This document shows, piece after piece, positions 2,925-39,247 of a stretch of 39,634 nucleotides of DNA. This DNA comes from Moorena sp. SIO3I8 (lineage in GTDB: Bacteria > Cyanobacteriota > Cyanobacteriia > Cyanobacteriales > Coleofasciculaceae), in assembly GCF_010692325.1 (NCBI RefSeq), contig NZ_JAAHHW010000015.1:59959-99592 (forward strand), given 5' to 3'. Made by a program: the position numbers and the translations under genes. The notes under the pieces were generated by a model. That model was given only the letters and a program-made list of their open reading frames with translations. It ran no database searches and was not told the origin of the DNA. Position 1 is the first letter of the stretch. Every line of letters begins with the position of its first letter.

Positions 2925-4184
2925 ATGGATACAATCGGATTAGCAATCACTGTTCTATCCTTAGGGATTTGGATCGGATTACTAGCATTTCGGGGTCAGT
3001 TTTGGCGAGCAGATCAACGGCTGGTTATAGAGAAATTCTCTACCAGGTCTGTAGGTCAAGGGGAATCCTTACCGAAAGTTTGTGCTGTAATTCCAGCTCG
3101 TAATGAAGCTGAGTTGCTCCCCACGACATTGCGATCGCTTCTGGCTCAAGACTACCCTGGCTGCTTGAAGGTGATTGTAGTCGATGACCAAAGCACTGAT
3201 CAAACCTGCACCATTGCTCAAGCCCTTGCCCAGGAAAGCAACCAATCTTCCGAACGATTCCAACTAGAAGTATTATCCGGTCAAGAGCTACCCCCTGGCT
3301 GGACAGGTAAACTTTGGGCCTTAGAACAAGGGATTTGTCATGGGCAGCAGCAAACCCCAGCCCCAGATTATTTTTTATTTACCGATGCTGATATTGAGCA
3401 TGATCCAGCCAATCTCCGTCAACTGGTTACCAAAGCGGAGATAGAACACTTGGATCTAGTTTCCCTAATGGTGTTGCTCAGATGCCAAGACTTTTGGGAG
3501 CGATTACTTATTCCTGCCTTTGTGTTCTTCTTTCAAAAACTGTATCCCTTTGCCTGGGTCAATAACCCCACAAAATCTACTGCCGCTGCGGCTGGAGGAT
3601 GTATTTTAATTCGCCATCAAGCCTTAAACCGCATCGGTGGAATTCAGGTGGTGCGTCAAGCATTAATCGATGATTGCGCCCTAGCTCAAGCAGTTAAATC
3701 TAGTAATAAACTCAAATCTTCCTCTGGTTCCCCTTCTGCCTTTGGTGGCATTTGGTTAGGGCTAAGTCAATCAACCCGCAGCTTACGACCATATCCTTCT
3801 TTAGCCAGTATCTGGAATATGATTGCTCGCACGGCTTTTACCCAACTAGAGTATTCCCCATGGCTATTAGTAGGTACGGTGATCGGAATGACCTTAATTT
3901 ATCTAGTACCTCCGATTGGTTTGATCGTTAGTGTATTGACTGGACATTGGCTGAATGCGATCGCCTTTGGCGCGGCTTCGCCGATCGCATCTTTTGTGAC
4001 ATGGTTGCTGATGGCTTTAGCTTACTTACCGACACTGCGTCTCTATCAATGTTCTCCTCTGCTGGGATTTTGCTTACCTGGGATCGGGTTGCTCTATACC
4101 CTAATGACCATAGATTCAGCATGGCGACATTGGCAAGGAAGGGGTGGTGCTTGGAAAGGAAGGGTTTATTCGGTTGAGGGTTAA
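2925..4184 (+). CDS. hpnB: hopene-associated glycosyltransferase HpnB-like
   Basis: GT2-family membrane glycosyltransferase of 419 residues. An N-terminal membrane helix (residues ~3-22) precedes the nucleotide-sugar fold: VIPARNEAELL, VIVVDDQSTDQT and the DxD-type metal site FTDADIEHD at about residues 152-160. An acceptor-side motif ALIDDCALA follows near residue 245. Two or three C-terminal membrane helices (from ~325 on) end the protein. HpnB proteins are encoded next to squalene-hopene cyclases and are assigned to hopanoid head-group or membrane-sugar chemistry; the exact substrate is unproven. Divergent pairing with shc supports the assignment. Residues 345-355 (AIAFGAASPIA) are encoded by a palindromic repeat inserted in frame between membrane segments. 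Confidence 0.88.
   Translation: MDTIGLAITVLSLGIWIGLLAFRGQFWRADQRLVIEKFSTRSVGQGESLPKVCAVIPARNEAELLPTTLRSLLAQDYPGCLKVIVVDDQSTDQTCTIAQALAQESNQSSERFQLEVLSGQELPPGWTGKLWALEQGICHGQQQTPAPDYFLFTDADIEHDPANLRQLVTKAEIEHLDLVSLMVLLRCQDFWERLLIPAFVFFFQKLYPFAWVNNPTKSTAAAAGGCILIRHQALNRIGGIQVVRQALIDDCALAQAVKSSNKLKSSSGSPSAFGGIWLGLSQSTRSLRPYPSLASIWNMIARTAFTQLEYSPWLLVGTVIGMTLIYLVPPIGLIVSVLTGHWLNAIAFGAASPIASFVTWLLMALAYLPTLRLYQCSPLLGFCLPGIGLLYTLMTIDSAWRHWQGRGGAWKGRVYSVEG
3957..3988 (+). repeat. in-frame palindromic element inside hpnB
   Basis: A 32-nt imperfect palindrome starts with the HIP1 octamer GCGATCGC and ends with CGATCGC, around a CTTTGGCGCGGCTTCG core. It is translated as AIAFGAASPIA. It shares the CCTTTGGCGCG core with the copies at 28740, 35550 and 38477, but lies in the opposite orientation relative to the host gene. 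Confidence 0.8.
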
Positions 4185-4202
4185 GGTTGGAGGTTGTTCT
4201 AT

Positions 4203-4275
4203 GTTGAAGGTTGGAGGTTGATAGTTGAAGGTTGGAGGTTGATAGTTAAAGGTTGGAGGTTGATAGTTGAAAGTT
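4203..4275 (+). repeat. 21-nt tandem repeat, about 3.5 copies
   Basis: The unit GTTGAAGGTTGGAGGTTGAT plus A occurs at 4203-4223, 4224-4244 and 4245-4265 (one G-to-A change), with a partial fourth copy. It lies just downstream of hpnB. No coding or regulatory signal is recognised. Confidence 0.9.
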
Positions 4276-4281
4276 TACTGT

Positions 4282-4370
4282 TATAGCAGTCGAAGTAAAG
4301 GTTAAGACATAGTTTTGTTACCAGAGCCGCTCTTGTCTATTACCCTTTCCCTAACTATACTTCACTATAC
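4282..4370. mobile_element. MITE-like element, family A (degenerate right end)
   Basis: The left 30 nt (4282-4311, beginning TATAGCAGTCGAAGTAAAGG and ending AAGACATA) are identical to the reverse complement of the right terminus of the element at 37111-37245. The right end (about 4350-4370, reverse complement TAGTATAGTGAAGTATAGTT) matches the other terminus only partly. There is no transposase inside. The rest of the gap to 4637 holds no gene. Confidence 0.65.
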
Positions 4371-4637
4371 TATTAACTTTTGTTAAGCACTGCATAATGT
4401 CCTGAACTTTGCCTGAGAAATAAATAGTGGTATTTTAAAATAACTAGGCTCAAAATTAACTCGAAGGCTGAGCATTAAATGGGCATCTATTGATTGACTC
4501 TTCCTTTGCTATTTAAAAAAAAAATTAAAGCTCAGGAAAATCTTGGCTTGTGATATAAAGGCATTCAGCTAATTTTAGTCTACGAAGGTTTCAAAATATC
4601 GATAAACACTAGCTGATACCGACAAAGGATAGGATTT

Positions 4638-5411
4638 ATGTTGGATAAAAATCTAGCAACTATTTTTAGTGCTTTTTCCATCTCTTTAGGTTTAACCATT
4701 GCTCTGGCTGGTGATCTTCATGCAGAGAGCACATTTCCTGATCCTAATGTTCCCTTCGTTGCCCAGTCTCTAGACGTATTGACCAATCAGATTGGATTTC
4801 CAATTGAGTTGGACTTAACCAAAGCACAAATTCGAGGAACGTTGCCAATTGAAAAATTCCGGGAAGATTTAGTTAACTCTATCAATCAATATGATGGGTA
4901 TTACATCAAGAATACTCGTTATAACAAGTGGAAGATCAACGATATTAATCTTCAGTCTATTGACAATGGTGGAGCAACATTTTCCTTTACCGTCAATTTG
5001 CGTAAGTATGAATGCATCAAGATTCCAGGTGTTGGCAGGAAGTGTACTCGTCTCTTTTCTGTAACACCTAGTGGTGATGTCAGTCTTGGTATTGCTATAC
5101 GTAATAACGATTTACAAGTTGCTTACCGTAAGCATAATGTGCGTGGACGGGGATGGTATTCTGATGCTCTGACTCTTCTTGAACGTCTATTTCGTAATCA
5201 AACAGTTAAAGCGATCAAGAATGGTTTGGCAAATTTTGATGGTGTCAATTTAATTTCCTATCTTAAAGATGCAGGTGTTGATAAACAGTTGAAACCCTAT
5301 GGCTTAACCCTAGATAAACTCGTTAAGGCTGGTGTTTCTATTAACGCCGATGTTACTCCAAAAGGGCTGAACTTTGTAATTGATTTACCTAAGACCATAA
5401 CCTTTGAATAA
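4638..5411 (+). CDS. exported protein of unknown function
   Basis: 257 residues; I do not recognise the family. Residues 1-30 form a typical Sec signal peptide (charged MLDKN, hydrophobic stretch IFSAFSISLGLTIALAG, cleavage near LHA-ES), so the product is probably periplasmic. The rest alternates polar and hydrophobic residues as in a beta-rich fold. Two cysteines (near KYECIKIPG and GRKCTRLF) are 14 residues apart and could form a disulphide. An amphipathic helix-rich C-terminal part follows (LLERLF, LISYLKDAGV). AGGAT lies about 8 nt before the ATG. It is convergent with the EAD1-like membrane protein, with 44 bp between stop codons. No link between them is proven. Confidence 0.75.
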   Translation: MLDKNLATIFSAFSISLGLTIALAGDLHAESTFPDPNVPFVAQSLDVLTNQIGFPIELDLTKAQIRGTLPIEKFREDLVNSINQYDGYYIKNTRYNKWKINDINLQSIDNGGATFSFTVNLRKYECIKIPGVGRKCTRLFSVTPSGDVSLGIAIRNNDLQVAYRKHNVRGRGWYSDALTLLERLFRNQTVKAIKNGLANFDGVNLISYLKDAGVDKQLKPYGLTLDKLVKAGVSINADVTPKGLNFVIDLPKTITFE

Positions 5412-5455
5412 TTAGTTAAGCTGTTAGGCATTAATGCTTAATAGCTTAGTCAGAT

Positions 5456-6943
5456 TTATTTGAGCTTTTCTAAAACTTGGTTATCTCTAATAATTTTATT
5501 TATTTCTTCGATAACATCATTTCGTTGTCGAGGCACCAAATATGCTGTTTCTCCGAATCCTATTACAAAGGATAATATCCCACTACCAGGTCTAAATGAA
5601 TAGTCAATTATTTGAGTATTTTTTATTTGAAAATTTCCAGTCGGATTAGGCTTATAAATAATTTTGAATTTGATATATCCTTTATAGTTTCTCTTGAGAA
5701 ATTTTAAGTGTTTTTCCTGCTTGCTCCATTCCACCTCACTAAGTAATACGTGTAATTCATGTGATTCATCATCTTGACCCGGGGATTTTATAAATTTATC
5801 TATTACTTCAGCTTTATGTATAAATATTGTCTTTAATTTATTAGGTTTAGTTAGATGCTGTTGTTCAAAAACTTTTACGATTTCTGGGTAATTGTCATAG
5901 TTTTGATGTAACTTTACTGTTTTAGTGGGAAGAATGCTAAATATAAATGCTTCTGCTAATATGACTATTCCCAAGATTACTAAGCTTCCCAAGATTACTA
6001 AGCTTCCCAAGATTACTAAGCTAACTGAGCCTATTTGGTTCAGTGTTAAATTTAGTTTTTTAACTAAACCAATTATAGCTAATATAATAACTATAATTGT
6101 ACATATTATACACAACAACATGCTCCAAAATTTAGAATACTTAACCCATTCTTGATTAATAAAGAATTCCATTATCCAAGCCACCATACTACTAATTAAT
6201 AGTCCTAGCAATACATAATCAAATTTAAATAAGCGGTTATTGCTTACCAATCTTATTATATAGCTTAGTATATAGCTTGCTTTCCTCCTCTTGGACTTGT
6301 TTTTTAACCACCATTTCTTGAGGTTATAAGCATTTTTGCTTGAAATATCAATATATTTATTTTTAACTAAAAAATTAGTAAAATTGATGATAGGTATTTC
6401 ACTGTAAAAATTTTCATCAAGTATAGCTTTTAAGTTATCTTTATCTATAATTTTATTTAAAATTATTATAGTTTTATCTTCTGTTACCTTCACTAATTGA
6501 TTAGTCCAATAATCTTGATATAATTGTTTTTTTGACTTCTTTTTTATCTTTTTTTCTAAAGGATACAATAGGTCGAGCAAACTAGTTGTAATTTTAAAAT
6601 TTTCATTGATTTCTTTTAACTTAGGATTACCGGGATTTTCTTCAAGTGCGCCATTAATTAAGTCTTCTAAACTATTTCTAGTATTAAAATGCTTTACTAC
6701 TTTGTAAGCTATTTCATCCAAATCTTCCCCAAGAGCAATATCGTCCAGATTTATAGTGAATTGATTTTTTAGCATCATTTCTAATTCAGTTTCACCAGGG
6801 AAAGCACTAAGCAGCGCTAACTTTATCTGTTTTAAAAGATAACCAGGGGTATTTCCAGCATTTTTTCTTCTAGCAGGGAAAGCAGTAAACAGAGCTGACT
6901 CTATCTGATCAAGGAGATAATCGGGGATATTTTTAACCTTCAT
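5456..6943 (-). CDS. EAD1-like membrane protein, candidate conflict-system component
   Basis: 495 residues, clearly more AT-rich than its neighbours. Residues ~34-113 fit Effector-Associated Domain 1: LLKQIKLALLSAFP, ELEMMLKNQFTINLDDIA, DEIAYKVVKHFNTRN, LEDLINGALEENPGNPKL. EADs are small helical adaptors that couple effectors to NTPase or peptidase partners in bacterial conflict and signalling systems. The first EAD helix is partly duplicated (residues 6-26 resemble 32-53). A helical linker follows. Three membrane segments lie at about 241-263, 272-294 and 303-337; the third contains a perfect 6-residue repeat (LVILGS). The C-terminal ~155 residues are a soluble domain of unknown fold. There is no catalytic motif, and no second EAD protein was seen in the window. 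The EAD call rests on motif recognition, not a search. Confidence 0.72.
   Translation of the reverse strand: MKVKNIPDYLLDQIESALFTAFPARRKNAGNTPGYLLKQIKLALLSAFPGETELEMMLKNQFTINLDDIALGEDLDEIAYKVVKHFNTRNSLEDLINGALEENPGNPKLKEINENFKITTSLLDLLYPLEKKIKKKSKKQLYQDYWTNQLVKVTEDKTIIILNKIIDKDNLKAILDENFYSEIPIINFTNFLVKNKYIDISSKNAYNLKKWWLKNKSKRRKASYILSYIIRLVSNNRLFKFDYVLLGLLISSMVAWIMEFFINQEWVKYSKFWSMLLCIICTIIVIILAIIGLVKKLNLTLNQIGSVSLVILGSLVILGSLVILGIVILAEAFIFSILPTKTVKLHQNYDNYPEIVKVFEQQHLTKPNKLKTIFIHKAEVIDKFIKSPGQDDESHELHVLLSEVEWSKQEKHLKFLKRNYKGYIKFKIIYKPNPTGNFQIKNTQIIDYSFRPGSGILSFVIGFGETAYLVPRQRNDVIEEINKIIRDNQVLEKLK
5968..6021 (-). repeat. 3 x 18-nt perfect tandem repeat inside membrane helix
   Basis: TTCCCAAGATTACTAAGC occurs three times without change (5968-5985, 5986-6003, 6004-6021). 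It is in frame and adds six-residue units to the third membrane helix of the EAD1-like protein. Perfect identity implies a recent expansion or an unstable length. Confidence 0.95.
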
Positions 6944-7393
6944 GTAAGTTCTCTACCTGTCAACAATAGAACTACTGATGCGATCGCTTTTAGGTGGGAT
7001 CCGATGGGCGAGTAAGCTATTGAATTTGGGTCTAATCAAATCTCCGTTAAGGATATTCGTCATTGGTTTGCTCATAGTTGTTAATGTACCTGATTAGACT
7101 AAAAATTACTATAATTCACCCTCTGTAATCTTATATGAGTAAGAGGAACGCCGATAGGCTGGTCTCAACTATATCCCAGTGGCATAGACAAGCGGTATAA
7201 GCCAGATCAAATAAGTTTGAGTGTAACAACAGCGGTTGGATATCTAACTCCTCTCCCCCCACACTTCCGAGACTTCCCGCTTAACCCAAATATCAAAAAA
7301 CTACCCCTATTACCATCATCCTACTGGGCAAATTGCTAAGATTTGCGCCATTATATCAATGTTTTCGGTGTGAGTAGTCAACTATCGTTCCCA
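6944..7393. other. intergenic region between divergent genes
   Basis: 450 bp separate the EAD1-like gene from the porin. It holds a HIP1 octamer at about 6979 and a TATAAT hexamer at 7110-7115 that could be a -10 box for the porin, although no good -35 box lies at the usual spacing. No gene or repeat is seen. Confidence 0.5.
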
Positions 7394-9178
7394 ATGCTCA
7401 AACTTACTTGGAGCTTACCCCATGTAACTCCAGCTGCGATCGCTGCAGCCTTTCTACTAACTCCCAATGGTCTAGCCAATGAATCTCAACCAAAGTCAAC
7501 AACCGCCCAGGAATTATCCATAGCAGTAGAGTTACTTCCCCCCATCTCTGTGGAAGTCATGGAGCAGGTGACACCTGTTGACCAGTTGTTACCAGGATCA
7601 CCAATAACGGAATTACCAACAAGTACACAAGGGTTTGACCATGAACTAACTCCCCATATCGAACCCAATATCGAACAGACAAATGATCCGATGGCTCAAG
7701 TCACATCAGTATCCCAGTTATCGGATGTCCAGCCCACAGATTGGGCATTCCAAGCCTTACAATCTATCGTAGAGCGCTACGGTTGTATGGCAGGATATCC
7801 TGATGGTAGCTATCGTGGCAATCGTCCCCTCAACCGTTATGAATTTGCTGCTGCTCTCAATGCCTGTTTCGATCAGCTCAGTAAGGTCATTGCTGCTCCC
7901 GATTTGTCATCTTCCTACTCTAAAGAGGATCTAGAAGCAATCAAGGGTTTGCAAGGAGAGTTTACCCTCGAACTAGCTCGACTGCGTGGTAACCTCGATG
8001 CTGTAACCGCTCGTACTGCTGAAGTCGAAATTACTGAGTTTTCCACCACGACTAAGCTCAATGGCGAAGTAGACTTTATCCTAATTGACTACTTCACCGA
8101 TAACAAAGCTGCCCCTTGTTGCAGTGACCCAACTCAAGACGATAGTCTTACCACTACATTCACAGGTCTTGCCCTATTATCCTTTGATACCAGTTTCACC
8201 GGTAAAGACCTGTTACGCACTAGAATCGACGCTACCAACGTGCCCGAATTGAATAACCCCCTTGATGGCACAGACATGACTCTCTATGACTTTGAGACAG
8301 ATACTGACAACGAGTTTGTCTTAACCGAACTATATTATCGATTCCCGATTAGCGATCGCATTCAAGCTCATATTGCAGCAGCAGGTCTGTCAGCTGATGA
8401 GATTACAGACCCCCTCAATCCCGTCTCAGCCCTCTCCCGTTTTGGAGTACATAACCCCCTTTATCGCCTAGCTGAAGGTGGTGGCGCTGCTATTCGTTAT
8501 CAATTTAATGACTCAATTAGAATCAGTGTAGCTTATTTAGGTAGTGCCGCTAGTATCTCTAATCCCACCGAAGGTAATGGGCTATTTAATGGTCAATTTG
8601 GTGCTTTCACTCAGCTAACCTTAACACCAAATCAGCGTTTAGGTATTGGATTAAATTATGTCCATTACTATTCTCCTGAACCAAACTCAGGGATTGATGT
8701 AACTGGCAGTACTGGCAGTCAATTTTCCCAAGCACCCTTTGGTGATCAAACCGCTACCTCGGCTAATGGGTTTGGTTTACAAGCGAGATATCGATTTAGT
8801 CCTGGTTTTGCCCTTGGGGGTTGGCTTAGTTATATCAATGCCAACGCCGAATCCTCTCCCCGCCAAATTGGTTTTGATGGCTCAAAGGGGGCTAAAGCTG
8901 ATATCTGGACTTGGGCGATAACCATGGCATTTCCAGATTTAGGCAAAGAAGGCAATGAATTAGGTTTCGTTTTTGGAATGCCCCCTAGACTAGCTGAAAA
9001 TGATATTAACAGTCGTCAAGATTCGGATGTATCTTACCATTTAGAGACCTTTTATCGCTACCAAATTAATGACAATATATCCATCACTCCCGGTCTATTT
9101 GTAATTATATCTCCAGAACACAACAGTAACAACAATAGTATCGTAGTACCAATGCTAAAAACTAAATTTATTTTTTGA
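7394..9178 (+). CDS. iron uptake porin (SLH + OprB-type beta-barrel)
   Basis: Cyanobacterial outer-membrane channel of the SomA/SomB/IutA-like type. An N-terminal signal peptide (hydrophobic AAIAAAFLL ending at GLANES) is followed by a variable linker. One SLH domain (SQLSDVQPTDWAFQALQSI ... YPDGSYRGNRPLNRYEFA) anchors the protein to pyruvylated cell-wall polysaccharide. A short coiled coil leads into the barrel (FSTTTKLNGEV to the terminal strand MLKTKFIF, ending in phenylalanine as outer-membrane proteins do). The ATG at 7394 is chosen because the signal peptide starts there; an upstream TTG at 7343 would add 17 residues. A second porin of the same design starts at 28569. Solute specificity cannot be read from sequence. 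Confidence 0.93.
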   Translation: MLKLTWSLPHVTPAAIAAAFLLTPNGLANESQPKSTTAQELSIAVELLPPISVEVMEQVTPVDQLLPGSPITELPTSTQGFDHELTPHIEPNIEQTNDPMAQVTSVSQLSDVQPTDWAFQALQSIVERYGCMAGYPDGSYRGNRPLNRYEFAAALNACFDQLSKVIAAPDLSSSYSKEDLEAIKGLQGEFTLELARLRGNLDAVTARTAEVEITEFSTTTKLNGEVDFILIDYFTDNKAAPCCSDPTQDDSLTTTFTGLALLSFDTSFTGKDLLRTRIDATNVPELNNPLDGTDMTLYDFETDTDNEFVLTELYYRFPISDRIQAHIAAAGLSADEITDPLNPVSALSRFGVHNPLYRLAEGGGAAIRYQFNDSIRISVAYLGSAASISNPTEGNGLFNGQFGAFTQLTLTPNQRLGIGLNYVHYYSPEPNSGIDVTGSTGSQFSQAPFGDQTATSANGFGLQARYRFSPGFALGGWLSYINANAESSPRQIGFDGSKGAKADIWTWAITMAFPDLGKEGNELGFVFGMPPRLAENDINSRQDSDVSYHLETFYRYQINDNISITPGLFVIISPEHNSNNNSIVVPMLKTKFIF

Positions 9179-9192
9179 TTTATTGTAAGCAT

Positions 9193-9278
9193 ATGCGCTA
9201 CGCGCACGCGTGCGCGTTCAGCCGTCAGCTGACAGCTTAAGATAAACCTGTTTGGCCTATGGCCACGCTACGGGAATG
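9193..9278. repeat. short dispersed GCTACGC/GGCC palindromes
   Basis: Adjacent small palindromes include GCGCTACGCGCACGCGTGCG (from 9193), a CAGCTGAC/GTCAGCTG motif, and TGGCCTATGGCCACGCTACG at about 9251. The same vocabulary (GTTCGCGTAGCGT plus a short palindrome) recurs at 21656 and 22022. These are repeats, not genes. Confidence 0.7.
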
Positions 9279-9425
9279 GGATAATTTAATATTGATAGAT
9301 GAATGAGAATTGAAAGTCAACAGAAAAGTCCATCTAAGCATAAGCTGATAGCCATCAGCTGACGTAACTCAGATTAAACCAATGGTTACCTCTGTTATTC
9401 AAAAGCTGATAGCTGAAACAAGCGT

Positions 9426-9790
9426 CCGAGTGCAGCGATTCTTGATAGCCAATCAGTAGAAACCGCAACCATGATTCATCTGGAAGTGGGCTATGATGCT
9501 GCCAAACAGGTTAAAGGTCGTAAGCGTCATCTGGTGGTGGTATCCCATGGTTTGTATTTTGGTTGTAGCCGTCAGTGCAGCTTCTTTACCAGAACGAGAG
9601 GGAGCTAAATTATTGTTCGACCAACTCCATGGACTTAGAGACAGATTTCACCGATTAATCAAAATTTGGGTTGATGGCGGTTATCGAGGTGAAGGTTTTA
9701 TGAGGTGGGTGATGGATGTCTATGGCTGGATTCAGGAGCCTTAGTATTACAAGTAATAAAAGCGTCTGAAAGTCCTGAAACAATTGAGGT
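9426..9790 (+). pseudogene. IS5-family-like transposase remnant, frameshifted
   Basis: Conceptual translation starting at 9426 reads PSAAILDSQSVETATM then GYDAAKQVKGRKRHLVV. It moves to another frame near 9555 (VAVSAASLPEREGAKLLFDQL ... WVDGGYRGEGF) and again near 9740 (LVLQVIKASESPE). DSQSV and DGGYRG carry the first two acidic residues of the DDE triad of IS5-group transposases. There is no N-terminal part, two frame changes are present, and the 3' side runs into dispersed repeats, so the gene is dead. Confidence 0.85.
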
Positions 9791-9819
9791 TGTATCTGCT
9801 CATACTTTTGGTGCTGTCA

Positions 9820-10110
9820 GCCATGCAAAGCGCGAGTGGGGGAAACCACGGCAGTCGCTCATGGGGGAGACCACGGCAGTCGCTCATGGTTAGAAGTTAC
9901 CGTAAGACAGTTGAGCCTTGTCTTGATGCAAAGCGCGAGTGGGGGAAACCCCCAAGACCGCGCAAATCACGCTAATCAATAAGTTTTACCCCTTTTTTGC
10001 ATAGCCGACCAACCATAAAGGCTCAACTGTCTAAGGTTTCGTCTCCGGGGGGAACCCCCAAGACCGCGCTGCCTCCCCAAGACCGCGCTGCCTTCCCAAG
10101 ACCGCGCAAA
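9820..10110. repeat. cluster of dispersed palindromic repeats
   Basis: Multiple copies of GCAAAGCGCGAGTGGGGGAA-type and CCCCCAAGACCGCGC-type units, plus GGCAGTCGCTCATGG units, are interleaved here. An outer inverted pair (9897-9919 and 10018-10037, TTAGACAGTTGAGCCTT core) brackets 9897-10037. The same units recur at 12735-13020. No gene is present. Confidence 0.85.
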
Positions 10111-10150
10111 TCACGCTAAATTAACATCAATAGCTTCGTAAAGCCTATTA

Positions 10151-10317
10151 TATAGCGTTTCTAGGAATCATGAGGTACAGTATTCTTTGACGTTGATTCC
10201 CTGTTTTAATGCAGGGCATCCCTATTCCTTCTTATGTCTTCCCTGTTCCCAGATCCGCTGTTCCCTGTTCCCTAAAATCCAGACATTGTGTACCTCAGAA
10301 GTCGCAGAATTGCTATA
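10151..10317. mobile_element. MITE-like element, family B
   Basis: The 29-nt terminal inverted repeats are 10151-10179 (TATAGC ... TGAGGTACA) and 10289-10317 (its complement), with 22 of 29 positions matching. The interior holds CCCTGTTCC-type simple repeats and no ORF. The same 29-nt terminus pattern occurs at 39275-39303, and a related pair at 17510/17758. Confidence 0.75.
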
Positions 10318-10430
10318 GCGTTAATTTAACGTAAAATTGACTTGGTCAATTTGAGGGCTGAAAAGCAGTTACTGAAAGACTTTCAAGTTTTTGGAGAGGT
10401 CTAATTCTAGGCTAGACAGAGAATGTTCTG

Positions 10431-10436
10431 TATAAT
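10431..10436 (+). promoter_or_regulatory. -10 box TATAAT before the cyclodeaminase/PhyH unit
   Basis: A perfect TATAAT predicts transcription starting near 10443. That makes the GTG at 10443 an unlikely start codon and supports the ATG at 10485. No convincing -35 box is seen at 17 bp. Confidence 0.6.
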
Positions 10437-10484
10437 GATTCAGTGTTGATTACTCGGGCAGAGTTCGTCCCATATAACAAAATC

Positions 10485-11567
10485 ATGGAAACTCTTTTAA
10501 TTAGGCCTGAAGATATTGCTGAAGTTGTCAAGCAAGTTGGGCTTGATTCCTTAATGGACAGGATGATGGCTAGTTTGACCGAAGCGTTCAAGGAAGTGAA
10601 TCGAGGTCAAGGGGAACTGCGATCGCGGGCGGGATTTGTCAAAAAACCATCCTGTGCTTGTGTCGAATGGATGCCCTACATGAGAAAAACAGACCAGTCG
10701 GTCACAATCAAAGTAGTTGCCTATCAGCCAGACAATATTGAGACAATCGGCATCCCTACGGTTTTAGCAACGACGAGCCTGTATGACTTTAACAACGGTC
10801 ATTTAGTGGCTCTGTGTGATGCTGTGACCCTAACTGCTATTCGGACAGGAGCTGCTTCAGCCATAGCTAGCAAGATTCTAGCCCATCCTGATAGTGCTAC
10901 TGTTGGACTGGTAGGAGCAGGAGCACAGGCAGTCACTCAGTTACACGGGTTGAGTCGAGTGTTTCCATTGCGAGAGGTCTTAGTTTTTGATGTTGACCCA
11001 GATGTAGCTCGCTCATTCTCCTCACGAGTAGCATTTTTAGGGCTATCAGTTCGGAGTTGTTCCCTAGAAGAACTCGAACGCAATGCTGATATTATTTGCA
11101 CAGCAACTTCGGTTGATGAAGGAGCAGATCCCGTCATGACCGGTGAAAACCTCAAACCTCACGTTCATATTAATGCCGTAGGTGCAGATATCATCGGCAA
11201 AACAGAGTTGCCCCTATCTTTGCTCAAACAAAGTTTTGTCTGCCCAGACTTTCCCGAACAAGCCTTGGTTGAAGGGGAATCTCAGCAATTACAACCGGAG
11301 GAAATCGGGCCGAGTTTAATGGAAGTGATTGAGCGACCAGAAAAGTTTTATCATTGGCGAGAACAGCAGACAATATTTGACTCTACGGGATTGGCAATAG
11401 AAGACCATGTCGCATTGGCAATTATGCAGGAATTGGTACAGGTTCACGGCTTAGGTCAACGTCTGCAACTTGAATATTGTCCGAAAGATCCGTATAACCC
11501 ATACGAGTTTATGACCAGTTCAGCGCAGCATTCGTCAGCACAGCCAGAACCATTAGCAGTAAGTTAA
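10485..11567 (+). CDS. ornithine cyclodeaminase / mu-crystallin family protein
   Basis: NAD(P)-binding enzyme of the OCD/mu-crystallin family, whose members include ornithine cyclodeaminase (ornithine to proline), alanine dehydrogenase, imine reductases and EutC of ectoine use. Seen: an N-terminal substrate domain (ALTEAFKEVNRGQG; EWMPYM), then AIRTGAASAIASKIL and the Rossmann motif GLVGAGAQAVTQLHGL, then a late D-rich region (INAVGADIIGK). The length of 360 residues is normal. ATG 10485 is preferred over GTG 10443 because a TATAAT box sits at 10431. A PhyH dioxygenase follows after 72 bp on the same strand, so the two are probably one transcript. The substrate cannot be fixed from sequence. 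Confidence 0.88.
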   Translation: METLLIRPEDIAEVVKQVGLDSLMDRMMASLTEAFKEVNRGQGELRSRAGFVKKPSCACVEWMPYMRKTDQSVTIKVVAYQPDNIETIGIPTVLATTSLYDFNNGHLVALCDAVTLTAIRTGAASAIASKILAHPDSATVGLVGAGAQAVTQLHGLSRVFPLREVLVFDVDPDVARSFSSRVAFLGLSVRSCSLEELERNADIICTATSVDEGADPVMTGENLKPHVHINAVGADIIGKTELPLSLLKQSFVCPDFPEQALVEGESQQLQPEEIGPSLMEVIERPEKFYHWREQQTIFDSTGLAIEDHVALAIMQELVQVHGLGQRLQLEYCPKDPYNPYEFMTSSAQHSSAQPEPLAVS

Positions 11568-11639
11568 ACCACAAATAAGCGTGGGTCAAATGACGCACAG
11601 GAAAGCTCGTTAGTATTTAGTTTCAAGGAGAAATTTTCC

Positions 11640-12461
11640 ATGCAACTCAGCAACGAACAATTGCAAACTTATCATGACCTTGGCTATCTCTTAGTGCAAA
11701 ACTGTTTTTCCGAAGCAGAAATAGATCGCATGAGAACTGAACTGCGGACAATATATGCCCAGGAAACACCTAGAAAAATTATTGAGGGAAATGAAAACCA
11801 GATCCGCACAGTTCTAGGTGTACATACTGAAAACGAAATTTTTCGACGTTGCTCCCACCATGCTTGTATTGTTAAACCCATAATGAAAATTCTGGGGAGC
11901 CAGGTCTATATTCATCAAAGCCAAATTAATCCCAAAGTAGCCTGGCAAAATGATGTTTGGATCTGGCATCAAGATTATGTATTTTTTAAGACAGAAGATG
12001 GTATTCCCACACCTCAGCTAGTCATTGCGCTTGTTTTCTTATATGAAGTTAACGAATTTAATGGGCCGTTAATGTTAATTCCCGGTTCTCATAAGGAAGG
12101 TATCGTTAGCGTTTTGAATCCTGTAACAGATAGTGAGACTGATGAGAGCGAAGAAGAATGGCTTCGACATATTAAAACGAACCAGACTTATCATGTTGAT
12201 CGCGAAACAGTTGAAAAATTGATAAATCAGTATGGTATTGTAGCACCAAAGGGAAAAGCCGGTTCAGTTCTCTTTATGCATCCTAATTGCGTTCATGGTT
12301 CAAACTCGAATATGTCTCCCTTTGATCGGACATTATTGGTGATCAAGTACAACAGCGTTAAAAATCTTCCAATTCCTGTAGAAAATCCACGTCCTGAATT
12401 TCAAGCCTCTCGCAATTATACACCAATAGAACCTTTATCGGATGAAGTTTTGTTGGTCTAG
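11640..12461 (+). CDS. phytanoyl-CoA dioxygenase (PhyH) family hydroxylase, EctD-like
   Basis: Fe(II)/2-oxoglutarate-dependent oxygenase of 273 residues. The iron ligands H110-x-D112 (WIWHQDY) and H219 (CVHGSNSN) and the 2-oxoglutarate arginine R230 (PFDRTLL) are all present, so it should be active. The stretch around the HxD motif (WHQDY followed by TEDGIPTP, then NGPLMLIPGSHK at ~141-152) resembles ectoine hydroxylase and other free-amino-acid hydroxylases more than lipid-type PhyH. AAGGAG at 11625-11630 lies 9 nt before the ATG. It follows the cyclodeaminase-family gene by 72 bp. A joint pathway making a hydroxylated proline-like or cyclic amino acid is an inference. No ectABC genes are in the window. 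Confidence 0.88.
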   Translation: MQLSNEQLQTYHDLGYLLVQNCFSEAEIDRMRTELRTIYAQETPRKIIEGNENQIRTVLGVHTENEIFRRCSHHACIVKPIMKILGSQVYIHQSQINPKVAWQNDVWIWHQDYVFFKTEDGIPTPQLVIALVFLYEVNEFNGPLMLIPGSHKEGIVSVLNPVTDSETDESEEEWLRHIKTNQTYHVDRETVEKLINQYGIVAPKGKAGSVLFMHPNCVHGSNSNMSPFDRTLLVIKYNSVKNLPIPVENPRPEFQASRNYTPIEPLSDEVLLV

Positions 12462-12495
12462 TAGCAAGCTGCTCTTAAGTTAATAATTTTTAGCC

Positions 12496-12526
12496 AGGGA
12501 GCTACTTTCTACGAACCTAGCTCCCT
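12496..12526 (+). terminator. hairpin after PhyH gene, possible terminator
   Basis: A 9-bp stem, AGGGAGCTA (12496-12504) with TAGCTCCCT (12518-12526), lies 35 bp after the PhyH stop. There is no U-run on the + strand, so intrinsic termination is uncertain. Confidence 0.45.
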
Positions 12527-12734
12527 CAAAAAGTAGTAATATGAAATATTTAAACATTTGCTACAAATGATTGATGGGGTGATTGTTTTTTTGAGTGTAG
12601 CAATTTTATTTTGACTGGGGATTTTTTTTTGAAAGCTATACAACAAAAGCTGAGGGGGTGACGAAATAAGCTAAAACGTTGACTCTATAAGCGATCTAGC
12701 TCTTAGGCCTCGTTGATAATACTTTCGTTGTCTT

Positions 12735-13020
12735 GATGCAGTCGCTCATGGTTTGAATTTACCGTAAGACAGTTGAGCCTTAATCAATGGAGGCGCGCTT
12801 TCCTATGGCGAATTAAATTACGGGGTCGTGCCCTGAGGGGGTGACAACAAGGCTAAAAACTAGACAGGGTATCGGGTGTGGGGTGTGGGGGGTGGGGAAA
12901 ATAGAAGCGATGCAGCGTGGTCTTGGGGGTTTCCCCCACTCGCGCAAAGCATGGCTGACAGCGATGCAGCAAGGGAACAGGGGGTTTCCCCCACTCGCGC
13001 TTTGCATCAAGACGGGAATA
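12735..13020. repeat. second cluster of dispersed repeats
   Basis: The region carries GCAGTCGCTCATGGTTTGAA and ACCGTAAGACAGTTGAGCCT (also at 9876-9919), a GGCGAATTAAATTACGGG unit, and two copies of GGGGGTTTCCCCCACTCGCG with flanking GCTTTGCAT. GGGAATA/GGGAACA simple repeats follow to about 13055. Nothing coding is seen between 12530 and 13066. Confidence 0.8.
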
Positions 13021-13066
13021 GGGAATAGGGAACAGCGGATCTGGGAGTAGGGAATATGATCGGTAT

Positions 13067-13199
13067 TCAAGCGGACTTGATATTAGGGGTTAATCCTAAT
13101 ACCTTGTGTTTTTCCCAACACTTGTGTGCTCGCTCCAGCTGCTGAGCAATCCCTTGAACACCAACAATTGGCAAAGCTTGCTCTAGCAACTCTTGACAC
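13067..13199 (-). pseudogene. C-terminal tail of a gene interrupted by the tnpB element
   Basis: Immediately past the tnpB element end, the minus strand is open for 43 codons to a TGA at 13067-13069. It reads QELLEQALPIVGVQGIAQQ then LERAHKCWEKHKVLGLTPNI with good protein-like composition. I do not recognise the family. It is most simply the 3' end of a gene split by insertion of the IS; the 5' part is not seen nearby, because the intron and PP2C gene lie on the other side. Confidence 0.45.
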
Positions 13200-13235
13200 T
13201 CCCCGGTCTAAAGACGCGGGGATTCTTGGTTCAAC
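13195..13235 (-). other. IS605-type right end with hairpin (omega-RNA 3' region)
   Basis: Minus-strand TCCCCG (13222-13217) pairs with CGGGGA (13205-13200) around an 11-nt loop, followed by GTGTCAA, the typical end of these elements. In intact IS605-type elements the TnpB guide RNA scaffold ends here and the flanking host DNA (13195 downward on this strand) supplies the guide. A near-identical end occurs at 21636-21700. Confidence 0.65.
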
Positions 13236-28568: not shown

Positions 28569-30506
28569 ATGTCTAAACTACTGTTGAAGTCCCTACTGAT
28601 AAGTCCTGCTGTAGTGGGTGCTGCTCTCGCCCTTGGTACCAATGAGGTACAGGCAGCCAACAAGGCCAACTCGTTAACAGTTGAGAGTCAAGTTACTACG
28701 GAAGCTGCCCCACTTCAAGCTGTCCCAGTAAAGACAATTGCGATCGCTCTTCAGAGCGCGCCAAAGGCGAACGCGGCGGCCCCCACTGCCCCAGAAGTAA
28801 AGGATACGCCAGTTTTTTCCACGGAGATGGGCTCCAGCTTGGGTGAGGGAACATCATTAACTTTAAAGGCCGATACCCTAGTTCCTAAGGTAGACGTACC
28901 GGAGGCAGAAACAAAAATAGCCCAAGCCGTACCCTCAGCCTCAGATAACAGCCAGCTGTTAAATCAAATTCAACGCTACGGTAAAGAAGGTAGTAACAGC
29001 CAAGATCAGGTAACTAGTGTTTCCCAACTGCGGGATGTTTCCCCTGGAGACTGGGCTTATGAAGCTCTGCGTAGTCTGGTAGAGCGCTACGGTTGTATCG
29101 CTGGTTACCCAAACCGCACCTTCCGTGGTAACCGTGCTACTACCCGTTACGAATTTGCGGCTGGCTTGAACGCTTGTTTAAACCAGATTGAGCGTTTAAT
29201 TGCTGCTAGTACCGCTGACTTTATTACCCGTGAAGACTTAGAAACGCTGCAACGGCTGATTCAAGAGTTTGAGGCAGAACTGGCTACCCTCGGAGCACGG
29301 GTCGATAACCTGGAAGGTCGAGTCGCATTCCTCGAGGATCACCAATTCTCTACTACTACCAAACTGGAAGGGGAAGTCATATTCGCCCTGACCAATAACT
29401 TTGGTGATTTTGGGGAAGATGACAATAACCAAGTTGTATTTGGTGACAGGGTTCGTTTAGTTCTCGACACCAGCTTCACTGGTGAAGACAGTTTGGTAAC
29501 TCGTCTGAGTGCTGGTAACCTGAATGCCTTTACAGAGGGGGGTGACATTGCCCCAGAACTCACCCAGACCTTTAACACTGAGATTGATGGTACTGGTGAC
29601 GGGAACGATATAGGGGTTGACTGGTTAGCCTATTACGGTGACATTCCTATTGGTCCGTTTGGTCGAGTATCAACTTACATTGCTGCCTTTGGTGGTCGGC
29701 ATGATGATTACGTTCCTACACTCAATCCCTATTTCCAAGACTTCGATGGTGGTAGTGGCTCTCTATCCACATTTTCTCAACAAAACCCCATCTATCGGAT
29801 TGGTGGTGGTGCTGGTTTAGGGGTTAGCTTCCAACTTGGTTTACTAGAGAGCGTGATTGGACCAAGTACTGTCACACTGGGTTACCTAGCTGGGAATGCG
29901 TCAGATCCTGATGAAGGGTCAGGTCTGTTCAATGGTGATTATTCTGCCTTGGGTCAGTTGAACTTCAACGTCAATGACCGGATTGGTGTCGGCTTTACTT
30001 ACGTCCATGGTTTCCATAAAGAGGACAGTGCCATATTCAGCAAAGGCGCGGGAACAGATGGTATCGTAGGTACCCGTGCTGCCAACTTAAATCAAGACGC
30101 ACTTCTTGCTAGTCGTATAGCTGATTCAGCTGACAAGGTAACCAACTCCTACGGAGCAGAATTAGCGTTTCGCCTCACCGACAAGATTTCCTTTAGTGGA
30201 TTTTTCAACTACACCGATGTGATTGTGATTGGTGAAGGAGATGGTGAAATTTGGAGTTACGGCGGTGGTTTAGCCTTCCCCGATTTTGGGAAAGAAGGTA
30301 GTGTGTTAGGTTTCTTTGGTGGTGCAGTGCCCTATTCGGATTTGAATGAGATTGATACCCCCATTCACATCGAAGGCTTCTACAAGTATCAGCTATCCGA
30401 TAATATCTCTATCACTCCTGGTGTGATCTGGGTGATTAATCCAGAGCAGAGTGATGATAATGATGATGCTGTGATTGGTACCATCAGAACCACATTCACG
30501 TTCTAG
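28569..30506 (+). CDS. iron uptake porin (SLH + OprB-type beta-barrel)
   Basis: 645 residues. The signal peptide is MSKLLLKSLLISPAVVGAAL with cleavage near VQA-AN. A long variable linker is followed by an SLH domain (SQLRDVSPGDWAYEALRSL ... YPNRTFRGNRATTRYEFA), a coiled coil (LIQEFEAELATLGARVDNLE) and a beta-barrel from FSTTTKLEGEV to the terminal TIRTTFTF. It is the same design as the porin at 7394, with which it shares the VERYGC and ISITPG stretches. Residues 58-69 of the linker (IALQSAPKANA) are encoded by a palindromic element that also occurs in three other genes. A clear terminator follows the gene. Solute preference is unknown. Confidence 0.94.
   Translation: MSKLLLKSLLISPAVVGAALALGTNEVQAANKANSLTVESQVTTEAAPLQAVPVKTIAIALQSAPKANAAAPTAPEVKDTPVFSTEMGSSLGEGTSLTLKADTLVPKVDVPEAETKIAQAVPSASDNSQLLNQIQRYGKEGSNSQDQVTSVSQLRDVSPGDWAYEALRSLVERYGCIAGYPNRTFRGNRATTRYEFAAGLNACLNQIERLIAASTADFITREDLETLQRLIQEFEAELATLGARVDNLEGRVAFLEDHQFSTTTKLEGEVIFALTNNFGDFGEDDNNQVVFGDRVRLVLDTSFTGEDSLVTRLSAGNLNAFTEGGDIAPELTQTFNTEIDGTGDGNDIGVDWLAYYGDIPIGPFGRVSTYIAAFGGRHDDYVPTLNPYFQDFDGGSGSLSTFSQQNPIYRIGGGAGLGVSFQLGLLESVIGPSTVTLGYLAGNASDPDEGSGLFNGDYSALGQLNFNVNDRIGVGFTYVHGFHKEDSAIFSKGAGTDGIVGTRAANLNQDALLASRIADSADKVTNSYGAELAFRLTDKISFSGFFNYTDVIVIGEGDGEIWSYGGGLAFPDFGKEGSVLGFFGGAVPYSDLNEIDTPIHIEGFYKYQLSDNISITPGVIWVINPEQSDDNDDAVIGTIRTTFTF
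28740..28774 (+). repeat. in-frame palindromic element inside porin gene
   Basis: 35 nt: GCGATCGCTCTTCAGAGC followed by GCGCCAAAGGCGAACGC. It is read as IALQSAPKANA in the flexible linker after the signal peptide. Confidence 0.9.
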
Positions 30507-35089: not shown

Positions 35090-36025
35090 TTACTTATTGT
35101 CCTCTATATACTTGCGCTGGCTCGGAGGGGCGACCCAAAGTAGACAATAGCCGCTAGTCGCTTTTTTGCCCCCAAAGTTTAACCGGATTCCTGCCTCTAT
35201 GGCATCCTTTTGACATTCTAAGTTATCCAAATAGCCCGCATTCCACTTGGTTATATTTCTGGCTAATTTGCCCTCTTTACTGATTGCCCAATTTAAGGTA
35301 TCTGCTTCGTCTAGGGTTAGTTGTCTAGAACCATTGGGGTCTAATTTTGGCTGACTTAACTGAGATAGTCCCCAACCCGCTCCTAGTCCACAAACCAATG
35401 ACAAAACCACAGCTCCACAGATGGCTGTAATGTTTATAAAAGGAGATGTCTTAGCAACCAGAAAATCCCTTGAGCCTTTGGGTGGATAGGAACAGGGCTG
35501 TCTTTCTGACTTGGATTCTATGGTTACCTTTGATTGCTCTATGGCAGACGCGTTCGCCTTTGGCGCGCTCTGAAGAGCGTTCGCCTTTGGCGCGCTCTGA
35601 AGAGCGTTCGCTTTAGAAATTTCTTGGCGCTGAATATCCATGGTGGATTGCCCGACGACATCAATCATCTGCTGGATATCCTTTTCCCAACTTCGGAATA
35701 ACTGCTCTAAGGATTTAGGAGTATCTGCTAACATTGTTTCCAAACTGGACGTTGCTACCAAAAATAGGAATAGCGGGTCATTAGCGTCCAATTCTGTCGC
35801 AACAACTAAATCTAAAATTTTTGCCTTAAAGCTATCCGAACGTCCTTCTAACAGCTTTTCCAATAGAGAGTAATCCGTCTTATCCCTCTCGTCAATTAAA
35901 TCTGACAGACTTTCAGGTTGCTTGATGTGGGAGAGGTTTTCTTGAGAAAGATTACTTCCTACCATTTCCCTAATTCCTTGTTTGCTTACTTCTTTATAAA
36001 TAGCCATAAAATTCGAGAATAACAA
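35090..36025 (-). CDS. single-span membrane protein (DUF6753-like)
   Basis: 311 residues. A helical cytoplasmic N-terminal region includes KILDLVVATELDANDPLFLFLVATS and PKSLEQLFRSWEKD, a pattern I associate with the cyanobacterial DUF6753 family. One membrane helix follows (ITAICGAVVLSLVCGLGAGW, ~225-245), then a short outer domain with two cysteines (NLECQKDA, SGYCLLWV). Residues 139-159 are two copies of the nine-residue unit ALQSAPKAN, encoded by the palindromic element in tandem. ATG 36025 is used; ATG 36007 is also possible. Function unknown. Confidence 0.7.
   Translation of the reverse strand: MLFSNFMAIYKEVSKQGIREMVGSNLSQENLSHIKQPESLSDLIDERDKTDYSLLEKLLEGRSDSFKAKILDLVVATELDANDPLFLFLVATSSLETMLADTPKSLEQLFRSWEKDIQQMIDVVGQSTMDIQRQEISKANALQSAPKANALQSAPKANASAIEQSKVTIESKSERQPCSYPPKGSRDFLVAKTSPFINITAICGAVVLSLVCGLGAGWGLSQLSQPKLDPNGSRQLTLDEADTLNWAISKEGKLARNITKWNAGYLDNLECQKDAIEAGIRLNFGGKKATSGYCLLWVAPPSQRKYIEDNK
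35550..35611 (-). repeat. two tandem in-frame palindromic elements
   Basis: The 27-nt unit GCGTTCGCCTTTGGCGCGCT plus CTGAAGA occurs twice, with a closing GCGTTCGC. The 27-nt period keeps the frame and yields NALQSAPKAN repeated. It is the same element, same reading frame and same orientation to the gene as at 28740. Confidence 0.92.
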
Positions 36026-36289
36026 GATTTGTAAATATTTGTTACATAGAGACGTTAAAATCCTGAAACGAGAAAAATTCTCTGAAAAAAGGAACGTTAC
36101 TATAAGGGGTTATATGTACATAATCAATCCGTTGCTCTGCTTAGAGAGTACTACCAAGAAAGAGAAACAGTCAAAAACTTGAACAGGTTAAATCAGTAAG
36201 CATTCAGCAGTTAGCTAACGCGCTAAGCGCAGGCTGACTGCTAATAGCTTAATGCTTACTTAAATCAAGGGATTTAGAAGAAGGAATTT

Positions 36290-37102: not shown

Positions 37103-37110
37103 TCAGCAGT

Positions 37111-37245: not shown

Positions 37246-37310
37246 TTTAAACCTAATCAAGGTATAAAATTCCTTGATTAAACTGGTTGGTAATCGGTAA
37301 GGCTTAAGTG

Positions 37311-37380
37311 GTAATGGGTAATGGTACGAGAGTAATCACAATTACCCATTACCCATTACCCATTACCCATTACTCATTAA
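37311..37380. repeat. TAATGGG / CCCATTA simple inverted repeats
   Basis: GTAATGGGTAATGG (37311-37324) faces about five TTACCCA units (37341-37378). They can form a hairpin between convergent genes. Confidence 0.85.
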
Positions 37381-37495
37381 ATCGGATTAGATATCAGATT
37401 AAGTCCGGTTGAATACCCATAATAAAGAAGATTGATGGGGAGATAGTGTGCTGTAAAAATTGGTATTAAGGATAATTATCGGGACATGATATCAC

Positions 37496-39247
37496 TTAAG
37501 ACCCAACATTTAATCTTTCTCCCCACAAGGTAGTTATTTCCCTAGCAAAAATTGATTTATCTGGTGAAGAGGAAGGCTTACAAACCCCTTCTGCTCGATT
37601 TTCCATTGCTAAAACTCTCTCTGTATCCTGAGAATACAAGGGAGTCATTGCTTCTCGCTGCTCTAATAGATTTTCCAATTCAATTTTAAAAGGAGTTCTC
37701 TGACCTTGATGGAACACTCGCTGCACTGCTGATTCTACAATGGCACGAATTTCTGCTCCAGTACATTTTCGTGTTGCACTCAATAATCGACGCCATTGTT
37801 TTTCTGTTAATGGTCCATTTCCCTCCCGATAACGAGGATCAAATCGGCTAGCATGGAGTTTAAAAATCTCAAACCGCTCAATCTCTTTGGGAAAACCCAC
37901 ATAAAACAGTTTGTCAAATCTGCCAGCACGAGTTAATTCTGGAGGCAAAGCATCTAATCGGTTGAGAGTTCCAATCACAAATGTAGGAGTTGTCTTCTCC
38001 TGCAACCAGGTTAAGAGAATTCCTAGAATTTGTTTGGTGTTATTTGTTTGGGAATCAAAAAACTTATCCAGTTCATCGAGAAACAAAACACAAGGACTCG
38101 CGGCCTCAACTCGACGCAAAAGTCGTTTTAAATGGGTTGGACTACTACCAATTACTAAATCCACTCCCATGCTAATTAAAGGAAATCCTAAGGTTTGAGC
38201 GCAGACTTTGGCAGCAAAGGTTTTTCCTGTTCCTGGAGGACCAATCAATAGCCATCCCTTGGGCAATGGAATCCCATAAGCTCTGGCTTGATCAGAAAAA
38301 TCTTGTTTCACCCATTCCAAGGCTTGTTTCAGTTTATCTAATCCCCCAAATTCCCCAACATCAGGTTTGAGGAATTCTAAACCAAATCCTTTGAGTCTGT
38401 GAATTTTGTAATTGATTAATTGCTTGGCTAGCTCTGATTGAGATTGGGCTTTATTGACTGCTATATGAAATTGCTTGCGTTCGCCTTTGGCGCGCTCTTC
38501 AGAGCGATCGCTGAAAGCGGGGCTTAGCCCATCGCCTTTGGCGCGCTCTTCAGAGCGATCGCTTAACAGGCGAGACACGATGGGAGCGCATTTATTTTTT
38601 TTCGCCGCCAGTTTGACAGCCATCCGAATTTCTTCCGGGGTCAATCCCCCGATAGACCGAGCTAGTCTATCGTCTAGAGGTGTTTCTTGGTCAGCCAAAC
38701 CATATTCTACTAAATGAGTTTTTAATAATGCCGTGACTTCCTTGGGTTCTGGAAAAGGAAATTCGGCAGCAGGAATAATTGAGTTTAAAATTCGAGGTAA
38801 CTCATTCTCCCCCGTATCCAAAAGAATTAGAAACTTATCGCTTGATAGACCAAAGTTGTAGAGAACATTAGACAATGAGGTTCTGATGGTTATGGTTTGC
38901 CCACTGTCAGCACTATCGAGTAAAGACGGTAAATCTTCTAAGATAAATAAGGCTTTACCAGAATAGGCTTGGCAAAAATTCAACACTTCAACAACCTGTG
39001 AAAATGCCTCACGCTCTTCTAGGACATTAACCATTGAACTTTCTAAGGTTTGAGAATTTCCATCCCACTCAATTTTCTGAAATCCACGACTAGCTAAATT
39101 CCAGAGGTAAACCAAGAATACTCCATGGTGAGTAAGACTCTGACAAATCCACCTAAGTACATTGTGTCTTTCAATCAAGGGAATTCCTATAGATACTGCT
39201 CTATAGCATTCTAATAATGTCCCAAATTCGGGTATTTTCATTCTCAA
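37496..39247 (-). CDS. Ycf46-like AAA family ATPase
   Basis: 583 residues. An N-terminal ~215-residue domain resembles the degenerate ATPase-like N-domain of Ycf46 proteins (LFILEDLPSLLDS; FPFPEPKEVTALL; DRLARSIGGLTPEEIR). The AAA domain follows, with Walker A GPPGTGKT at 336-343, Walker B VLFLDELDKFF, sensor region TFVIGTLNRLDALPPEL and the arginine-finger segment RAGRFDKLFYVGFP. Ycf46 in Synechocystis is linked to inorganic-carbon use; other roles are possible. Residues ~229-258, between the domains, are two in-frame copies of the palindromic element (SDRSEERAKG). The neighbours are poorly characterised proteins. Confidence 0.88.
   Translation of the reverse strand: MRMKIPEFGTLLECYRAVSIGIPLIERHNVLRWICQSLTHHGVFLVYLWNLASRGFQKIEWDGNSQTLESSMVNVLEEREAFSQVVEVLNFCQAYSGKALFILEDLPSLLDSADSGQTITIRTSLSNVLYNFGLSSDKFLILLDTGENELPRILNSIIPAAEFPFPEPKEVTALLKTHLVEYGLADQETPLDDRLARSIGGLTPEEIRMAVKLAAKKNKCAPIVSRLLSDRSEERAKGDGLSPAFSDRSEERAKGERKQFHIAVNKAQSQSELAKQLINYKIHRLKGFGLEFLKPDVGEFGGLDKLKQALEWVKQDFSDQARAYGIPLPKGWLLIGPPGTGKTFAAKVCAQTLGFPLISMGVDLVIGSSPTHLKRLLRRVEAASPCVLFLDELDKFFDSQTNNTKQILGILLTWLQEKTTPTFVIGTLNRLDALPPELTRAGRFDKLFYVGFPKEIERFEIFKLHASRFDPRYREGNGPLTEKQWRRLLSATRKCTGAEIRAIVESAVQRVFHQGQRTPFKIELENLLEQREAMTPLYSQDTERVLAMENRAEGVCKPSSSPDKSIFAREITTLWGERLNVGS
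38477..38563 (-). repeat. two in-frame palindromic elements inside AAA gene
   Basis: Copies at 38477-38511 (35 nt) and 38531-38563 share CCTTTGGCGCGCTCTTCAGA then GCGATCGC. They are separated by a short spacer containing GGGGCTTAGCCC. They are read as SDRSEERAKG, i.e. in a different frame from the copies at 28740 and 35550. Confidence 0.92.

Follow-up and report, generated by a model that had tools for sequence, protein, structure and literature searches.

In-frame insertions into unrelated Moorena proteins by small palindromic elements that split HIP1 sites and resemble SDR5

A 39,634-nt stretch of the genome of the cyanobacterium Moorena sp. SIO3I8 (contig NZ_JAAHHW010000015.1, positions 59,959 to 99,592; hereafter the window) contains short palindromic elements within four unrelated genes, located at the octamer known as highly iterated palindrome 1 (HIP1, GCGATCGC). 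Comparison with orthologues that do not have the corresponding residues supports the conclusion that these copies are clean in-frame insertions into the host proteins. With a probability of about 0.8, we explain them as small dispersed repeats (SDRs) of the SDR5 type, whose insertion is directed by HIP1 and of which selection then keeps only the frame-neutral copies in genes.

The core of the element, CCTTTGGCGCG, was found exactly six times in the window, at 3964, 35557, 35584, 38484 and 38535 on the forward strand and at 28757 on the reverse strand, compared to a mean of 0.40 and a maximum of 2 in dinucleotide-shuffled versions of the window when up to one mismatch was allowed. All six cores lie inside genes with family support, encoding HpnB (TIGR03469), a SomB/OprB porin, a DUF6753 protein (PF20538) and an AAA ATPase (PF00004), and the reading frame is preserved at every copy. 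These results bear out an earlier note, made from the letters of the window alone, that had described six frame-keeping copies at four coding loci. The single element of about 30-35 nt in that note was resolved into two related ones, a 24-nt element in hpnB (ATCGCCTTTGGCGCGGCTTCGCCG) and a 27-nt element in the porin, DUF6753 and AAA genes (TTCGCCTTTGGCGCGCTCTGAAGAGCG, with a GA or TC loop). The genome search that the note had proposed recovered 16 exact cores in the whole genome (7.99 Mb in 510 contigs), and a wider pattern was recovered from four Moorena genomes. The presence of 6 of the 16 cores within 39.6 kb is a strong clustering (binomial 1e-10, in a post hoc test).

Orthologous sites were compared in three other Moorena genomes, G001, G002 (M. 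bouillonii PNG) and G003, the genome of the window being G000. In hpnB, the 24-nt element splits HIP1 at 3957..3988 on the + strand (inserted bases 3960-3983 if placed after nt 3 of HIP1, read as AIAFGAASPIA), and HIP1 is intact and unfilled in the orthologues of G002 and G001; the G003 protein stops before the site. Of 24 orthologue loci returned, 14 were compared, and among the 12 non-self loci that span the site the residues were absent from 11, with a different insert in the twelfth (G014). The hpnB insertion could be polarised because outgroup orthologues do not have these residues, and alignments show that the site falls in a stretch of variable length. The earlier note's placement of most sites in linkers or interhelical loops is putative, judged here from alignments. 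The porin carries a 27-nt element at 28740..28774 on the − strand (inserted bases 28745-28771 if after nt 3, read as AIALQSAPKANA), at approximately residues 58-69 and ahead of the SLH domain (155-197); this site is filled in G002 and is an empty HIP1 in G001, and no porin orthologue was found within the G003 stretches examined. The DUF6753 gene, located on the − strand, contains two tandem 27-nt elements in the window (35550..35611, + strand; units 35553-35579 and 35580-35606, read as KANALQSAPKANALQSAPKANA), one unit in G002, an empty GCGATCGC in G001 and an empty GCGATAGC, which is HIP1 with one change, in G003. The AAA gene, also on the − strand, carries one unit in all four Moorena genomes (38477..38511 in the window, + strand; inserted bases 38480-38506 if after nt 3, read as SDRSEERAKGER), and the residues at this site are absent from three outgroup homologues. 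In-frame extras at the same site comprise 51 bp (17 codons) at 38512..38562 on the + strand, present only in the window's genome of the four and holding the second 27-nt-type copy (38531-38562), as well as 72 different bases in G003. A mirror case was found in shc, the squalene-hopene cyclase gene adjoining hpnB (908-2821, − strand), where HIP1 is intact in the window (1395..1402) and is filled in G002 by a 48-bp nested element that adds 16 residues; the solved cyclase 1gsz, the best match, aligns with 16 fewer residues in this region. Another called gene of G002 (in L217) is filled at a site that is empty in G001. The occurrence of filled and empty sites among the four Moorena genomes indicates recent mobility, and the orthologue check suggested in the earlier note yielded empty HIP1 sites in sister genomes for hpnB, the porin and DUF6753.

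Pairs of empty and filled sites were used to locate the insertion point. Insertion after any of nt 2-8 of HIP1 would account for the 24-nt type and after any of nt 0-3 for the 27-nt type, and the two ranges overlap at nt 2 and 3. No empty site was seen for the 26-nt class, which fits after nt 3-8; a target common to all classes would therefore be split after nt 3 (GCG^ATCGC). The 27-nt insertions in the porin and DUF6753 genes have GCGTTCGC on their left side, though the empty sites of G001 are GCGATCGC, and judging from these letters TTCGC most likely arrived with the element and is not a copy of the target. With TTCGC in two separate insertions against ATCGC in the target, the 27-nt form does not have a target-site duplication; for the 24-nt type, a 5-bp duplication is indistinguishable from none. 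HIP1 as a general hotspot for indels was also considered and rejected, as only 4 of 197 indels of 10-250 bp in a 165.6-kb alignment of G002 and G001 fell at HIP1-like empty sites, and, among the matches listed, 1 of 22 did so between the window and G002 and 2 of 20 between the window and G001.

A catalogue of copies was assembled from the four genomes with the pattern GCGWTCGCCNNNGGCG, which gave 27, 26, 15 and 41 matches in G000, G002, G001 and G003, respectively, compared to 0, 0, 0 and 1 for the reversed control. After flanks were fetched and identical contexts merged, 105 distinct copies remained, and their location was scored with a simple gene caller based on codon usage, for which 800 kb of G002 and G001 served as training data. 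Half of the whole-codon copies (24 of 48) were inside called genes, with 9 of 25 in the 24-nt class, 8 of 13 in the 27-nt class and 7 of 10 among the nested copies; the lengths of the nested copies, which the search did not set, were 48 nt in seven cases and 72 nt in three, all multiples of three. None of the 57 remaining copies (9 of 26 nt, 28 with a right end other than HIP1, many of which are part of a longer repeat found in spacers, and 20 mixed) was fully inside a called gene, and two overlapped one in part. In the fair comparison, 24 of 48 whole-codon copies were genic versus 0 of 14 HIP1-flanked copies of 26 or 28 nt, two of which overlapped a gene in part (Fisher 4e-4). Genes are not a preferred target of the element, given that the other half of the whole-codon copies lies outside called genes and that no frame-breaking copy lies fully within one. 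The absence of frame-breaking lengths from genes therefore points to selection after insertion and not to an element that seeks proteins, so that the count of genic against intergenic copies raised in the earlier note came out against a coding preference and in favour of a filter on frame. Inspection by hand, applied to the whole-codon copies, added five that look genic: two in orthologues of a putative ComF-like gene, whose match to Pfam Pribosyltran is below the cut-off, and one each in an EamA gene, a PemK-like gene and, in L324, a frame of 247 residues.

The unit consists of a two-base start (AT or TT) and two adjacent hairpins, CGCC-TTT-GGCG followed by a variable second hairpin. Folding with DNA parameters predicted an identical dot-bracket structure for the 24-nt Moorena type and for a 24-nt element of Nostoc type, and the arms of the split HIP1 are predicted to be able to pair, closing a three-way junction. 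Between the 24-nt and Nostoc-type elements, two pairs of the second hairpin show changes on both sides. As the earlier note had stated, the element is open in several frames (6 of 6 for the 24-nt form, 5 of 6 for the 27-nt form); six-frame openness as a special adaptation was rejected, since shuffled sequences reach equal openness in 40-63% of cases. Two observations on these units may be added. Among homologous copies (38480-38506 and 38531-38562 in the window; L026, L032), the loop of the second hairpin is GA, TC or TG, and a flip between GA and TC shifts the sole stop-bearing frame to the opposite strand, a possible switch. Mosaic chains of hairpin units (GTAGCGTGGCC..., CCCTTCGGG, TTTGGCG) with TCGC between them were seen in L002, L004, L034, L036 and L315.

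Host proteins were named by Pfam and NCBIfam and include, along with HpnB, the SomB/OprB porin, DUF6753 and AAA, proteins of the TonB_C, ChaN and CHAT/TPR families as well as transglutaminase, squalene-hopene cyclase, AI-2E transporter, EamA and PemK-like proteins; three scanned host proteins (L005, L312, L217) gave no Pfam family. In one locus of G003 (L035, contig C170), a 27-nt element supplies the C-terminal residues of a PemK/MazF-like gene. A broader two-hairpin pattern was present in at least 39 of 243 genomes of the order, with many counts in Moorena and in families f31 and f33 among the matches listed. The Nostoc-type 24-nt element was found in 63 plasmid records, 44 of which are Nostocales by genus name (30 of 30 among the matches listed), and it lies under annotated genes at 17 of the 30 plasmid places listed, some of them in near-identical plasmids. 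The Moorena 24-nt element gave few good matches among cyanobacterial plasmids. In Tolypothrix, a Nostoc-type unit adds a clean 8 residues to an AAA ATPase homologous to that of the window, at a different site, and protein insertion is therefore not confined to Moorena.

Under the SDR5-type explanation, insertion would make no distinction between genes and spacers, and, HIP1 being itself mostly genic, many of the units would land in genes. Those of 24, 27, 48 or 72 nt would persist there provided that they create no stop, and those of 26 or 28 nt would be purged. The in-frame additions observed are of 8, 9 or 16 residues (24, 27 or 48 nt), lengths that are whole codons and therefore add amino acids without a frame shift. 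The added peptides are most likely tolerated by-products and not selected functions. We infer the manner of movement: copying would proceed without target-site duplication and often locally, as expected for a hairpin moved in single-stranded form or for template switching between HIP1 sites, and not for a cut-and-paste transposase. The window cluster accounts for 5 of the 7 exact matches to a 14-nt probe in the window's genome and for 3 of the 4 in G002 (a post hoc count), and the AAA copy is the sole exact match in G001. Of the newer copies, the one in DUF6753 is 2.9 kb from the AAA copy and the one in the porin 9.7 kb, or 12.1 kb in G002.

Several routes of movement were weighed against these observations. 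Template switching or gene conversion between HIP1 sites, in which a strand paired at GCG of an empty site enters a nearby filled site and comes back at ATCGC with no dedicated enzyme involved, is possible but held tentatively. It would account for the absence of a target duplication (TTCGC in the porin and DUF6753 copies versus GCGATCGC in G001), for local spread from the AAA copy common to the four genomes to DUF6753 and the porin, and, by slippage, for the tandem doubling in DUF6753; the homology beyond the element, however, amounts to only 3 + 5 bases, the copies of the wider pattern are scattered round the genome, and the clustering test was post hoc. Somewhat unlikely, in our judgement, is a single-strand transposase of the Y1 type or the REP-associated tyrosine transposase (RAYT) type, as proposed for doublets (REPINs) of repetitive extragenic palindromes (REPs). 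The two-hairpin single-strand fold, the precise short target and the missing target duplication are consistent with such an enzyme, as are 13-25 Y1 transposase matches, many of them fragments, in each of the four Moorena genomes (70 altogether). On the other hand, the 24 Y1 loci examined (74 kb) contained no copy of the element, a weak result with less than one expected, and a GTAG or CGTC tetramer stands directly beside the split HIP1 in just 1 of 48 copies on either strand. Duplication-free insertion, local clustering and the Y1 result fit template switching and a single-strand transposase alike, with no decision between them.

Movement by an RNA intermediate, which the SDR authors reportedly suggested in 2008, appears improbable: the fold predicted with DNA parameters is stable in a single strand, as this route would have it, but 15 of the 24 genic copies are antisense to the host gene. 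We give almost no credence to the view that the repeats are ordinary low-complexity or conserved protein linkers written in HIP1-rich codons, for although HIP1 sites are common in called genes and mostly in one frame, it is contradicted by the clean empty sites and by DNA that is almost the same in unrelated genes and in spacers. A bolder extension of the SDR5-type explanation, which we consider rather unlikely, is that the element may be a modular HIP1 parasite filtered by codon length, with a constant first hairpin and interchangeable second hairpins. Its spread between HIP1 sites, mainly local and perhaps without a transposase, would steadily supply cyanobacterial proteins, among them core enzymes such as squalene-hopene cyclase, with new segments of 8, 9 and 16 residues, and if the GA/TC loop of the 27-nt form were inverted, the one closed frame of that form would change strand.

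Several points weigh against the SDR5-type explanation or the tests behind it. The likeness to SDR5 was drawn from site, size and fold and not from the published consensus sequence, and no mobilising enzyme was found. The 4 indels at HIP1-like sites in the G002-G001 alignment compare with about 2 expected by our own arithmetic. The gene caller is simple and conservative, with 55% and 61% of two 400-kb stretches assigned as coding. Because the search for copies started from the first hairpin of the window, other family members were missed, and the catalogue's 24- and 27-nt classes are fixed in length by definition. Not every copy is an independent observation, and when orthologues and paralogues were merged by hand the length comparison weakened to 16 of 39 versus 0 of 11 (p = 0.01). 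By the same caller, 264 of 381 HIP1 sites lie inside called genes, most often in one same frame, and whole-codon copies (24 of 48) are rarer in genes than these sites (p = 0.009, caller alone), indicating that some in-frame insertions may be harmful; with the five hand-added copies (29 of 48), the genic share no longer differs clearly from that of HIP1 sites (p = 0.25). As support for the fold, the base-pair test was mixed: in 12 chosen sequences, both-side changes occurred at 2 of 13 pairs, a level equalled or exceeded in 143 of 500 shuffles, and in 5 of 156 cells, a level that none of the 500 attained, and further pair types were matched by 453 of 500 shuffles.

Other inserts were seen in hpnB. 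The G014 orthologue (L039, from another genus) has a different 27-nt insert at the same HIP1, without clear hairpins by eye. Another palindromic repeat (CCCCCCTAGCCCCCCAA...TTGGGGGATTTAGGGGGC) lies in frame near residue 270 of hpnB in G001 and G002 (L044, L040), lengthening that stretch by 27 residues compared to the window, and in G003 (L042) the frame ends shortly after the start of a repeat of this type. Repeats resembling it occur elsewhere as indels of about 100-155 bp. The end of the window matches 400-kb stretches of G002 and G001, within which no alignment longer than 1500 bp was found for window positions 1-13600.

The element is most likely of the SDR5 type and not of a new kind, as site, size and fold agree with the known class. 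The earlier note's proposal of a new protein-inserting family built on HIP1 is not supported: the site matches SDR5, the fold matches the Nostoc type, and proteins are not preferred. What is new, as far as literature searches show, is the set of exact before/after pairs inside proteins together with the length rule, though an earlier mention of copies in genes is possible in the 2008 SDR5 paper. Searches on SDR5, HIP1 and Moorea repeats returned no title or abstract opening that reports protein insertion by such elements, and when open papers were screened for the core sequence, no title among the matches listed was on cyanobacterial repeats. The result matters in several ways. Adjacent genes in sister Moorena strains provide exact before/after pairs, one of them in a well-studied enzyme, and the old puzzle of what moves 24-nt repeats into HIP1 sites becomes testable. 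Whether so small a repeat can stay in genes follows a simple rule, that of whole-codon length, and annotators should be aware that 'insertions' of 8-16 residues in cyanobacterial proteins can derive from repeats.

SDR5 reportedly has a size of 21-27 nt, and the secondary structure of SDR4-6 is said to be backed by compensatory changes. The 24- and 27-nt Moorena elements are within this size, and the 28-nt class and the nested 48- and 72-nt elements exceed it. According to PMC4390886, SDR5 is a small cyanobacterial repeat, described in 2008 in Nostoc and relatives (Elhai et al. 2008, Genome Res 18:1484), that inserts in HIP1 between nt 3 and 4; the Moorena junctions (nt 2 or 3, and nt 3 with the 26-nt class) agree with this position. 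The 24-nt Moorena type is also like the Nostoc-type element in length, site context and predicted fold. The Moorena copies found differ from SDR5 in the TTT loop of the first hairpin, in their several second hairpins (24, 26, 27, 28, 48 and 72 nt) and in repeated in-frame protein insertion with empty sites shown. Rickettsia palindromic elements, according to the review PMC10969869, are palindromic repeats of about 150 bp found in frame in unrelated proteins, as the Moorena elements also are; the latter are 24-72 nt, cyanobacterial and HIP1-targeted, and the likeness was drawn by description and not by sequence. Of the resemblance seen in the earlier note, a functional analogy stands and kinship does not. 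REPs and REPINs tagged with GTAG or CGTC are short palindromes that are sometimes within genes, according to PMC3733652. Mosaics with GTGGCC-type hairpins are present in Moorena as well, but the tag adjoins the split HIP1 directly in the single copy noted above, and a looser test found the tetramer within about 10 bases in 9 of 48 copies, a count that comes with no chance level and with right ends partly misplaced. Miniature inverted-repeat transposable elements differ in that the 27-nt Moorena insertions have no target-site duplication. HIP1 itself is the target of the element and provides its outer stem, and HIP1 alone is the octamer without an insert.

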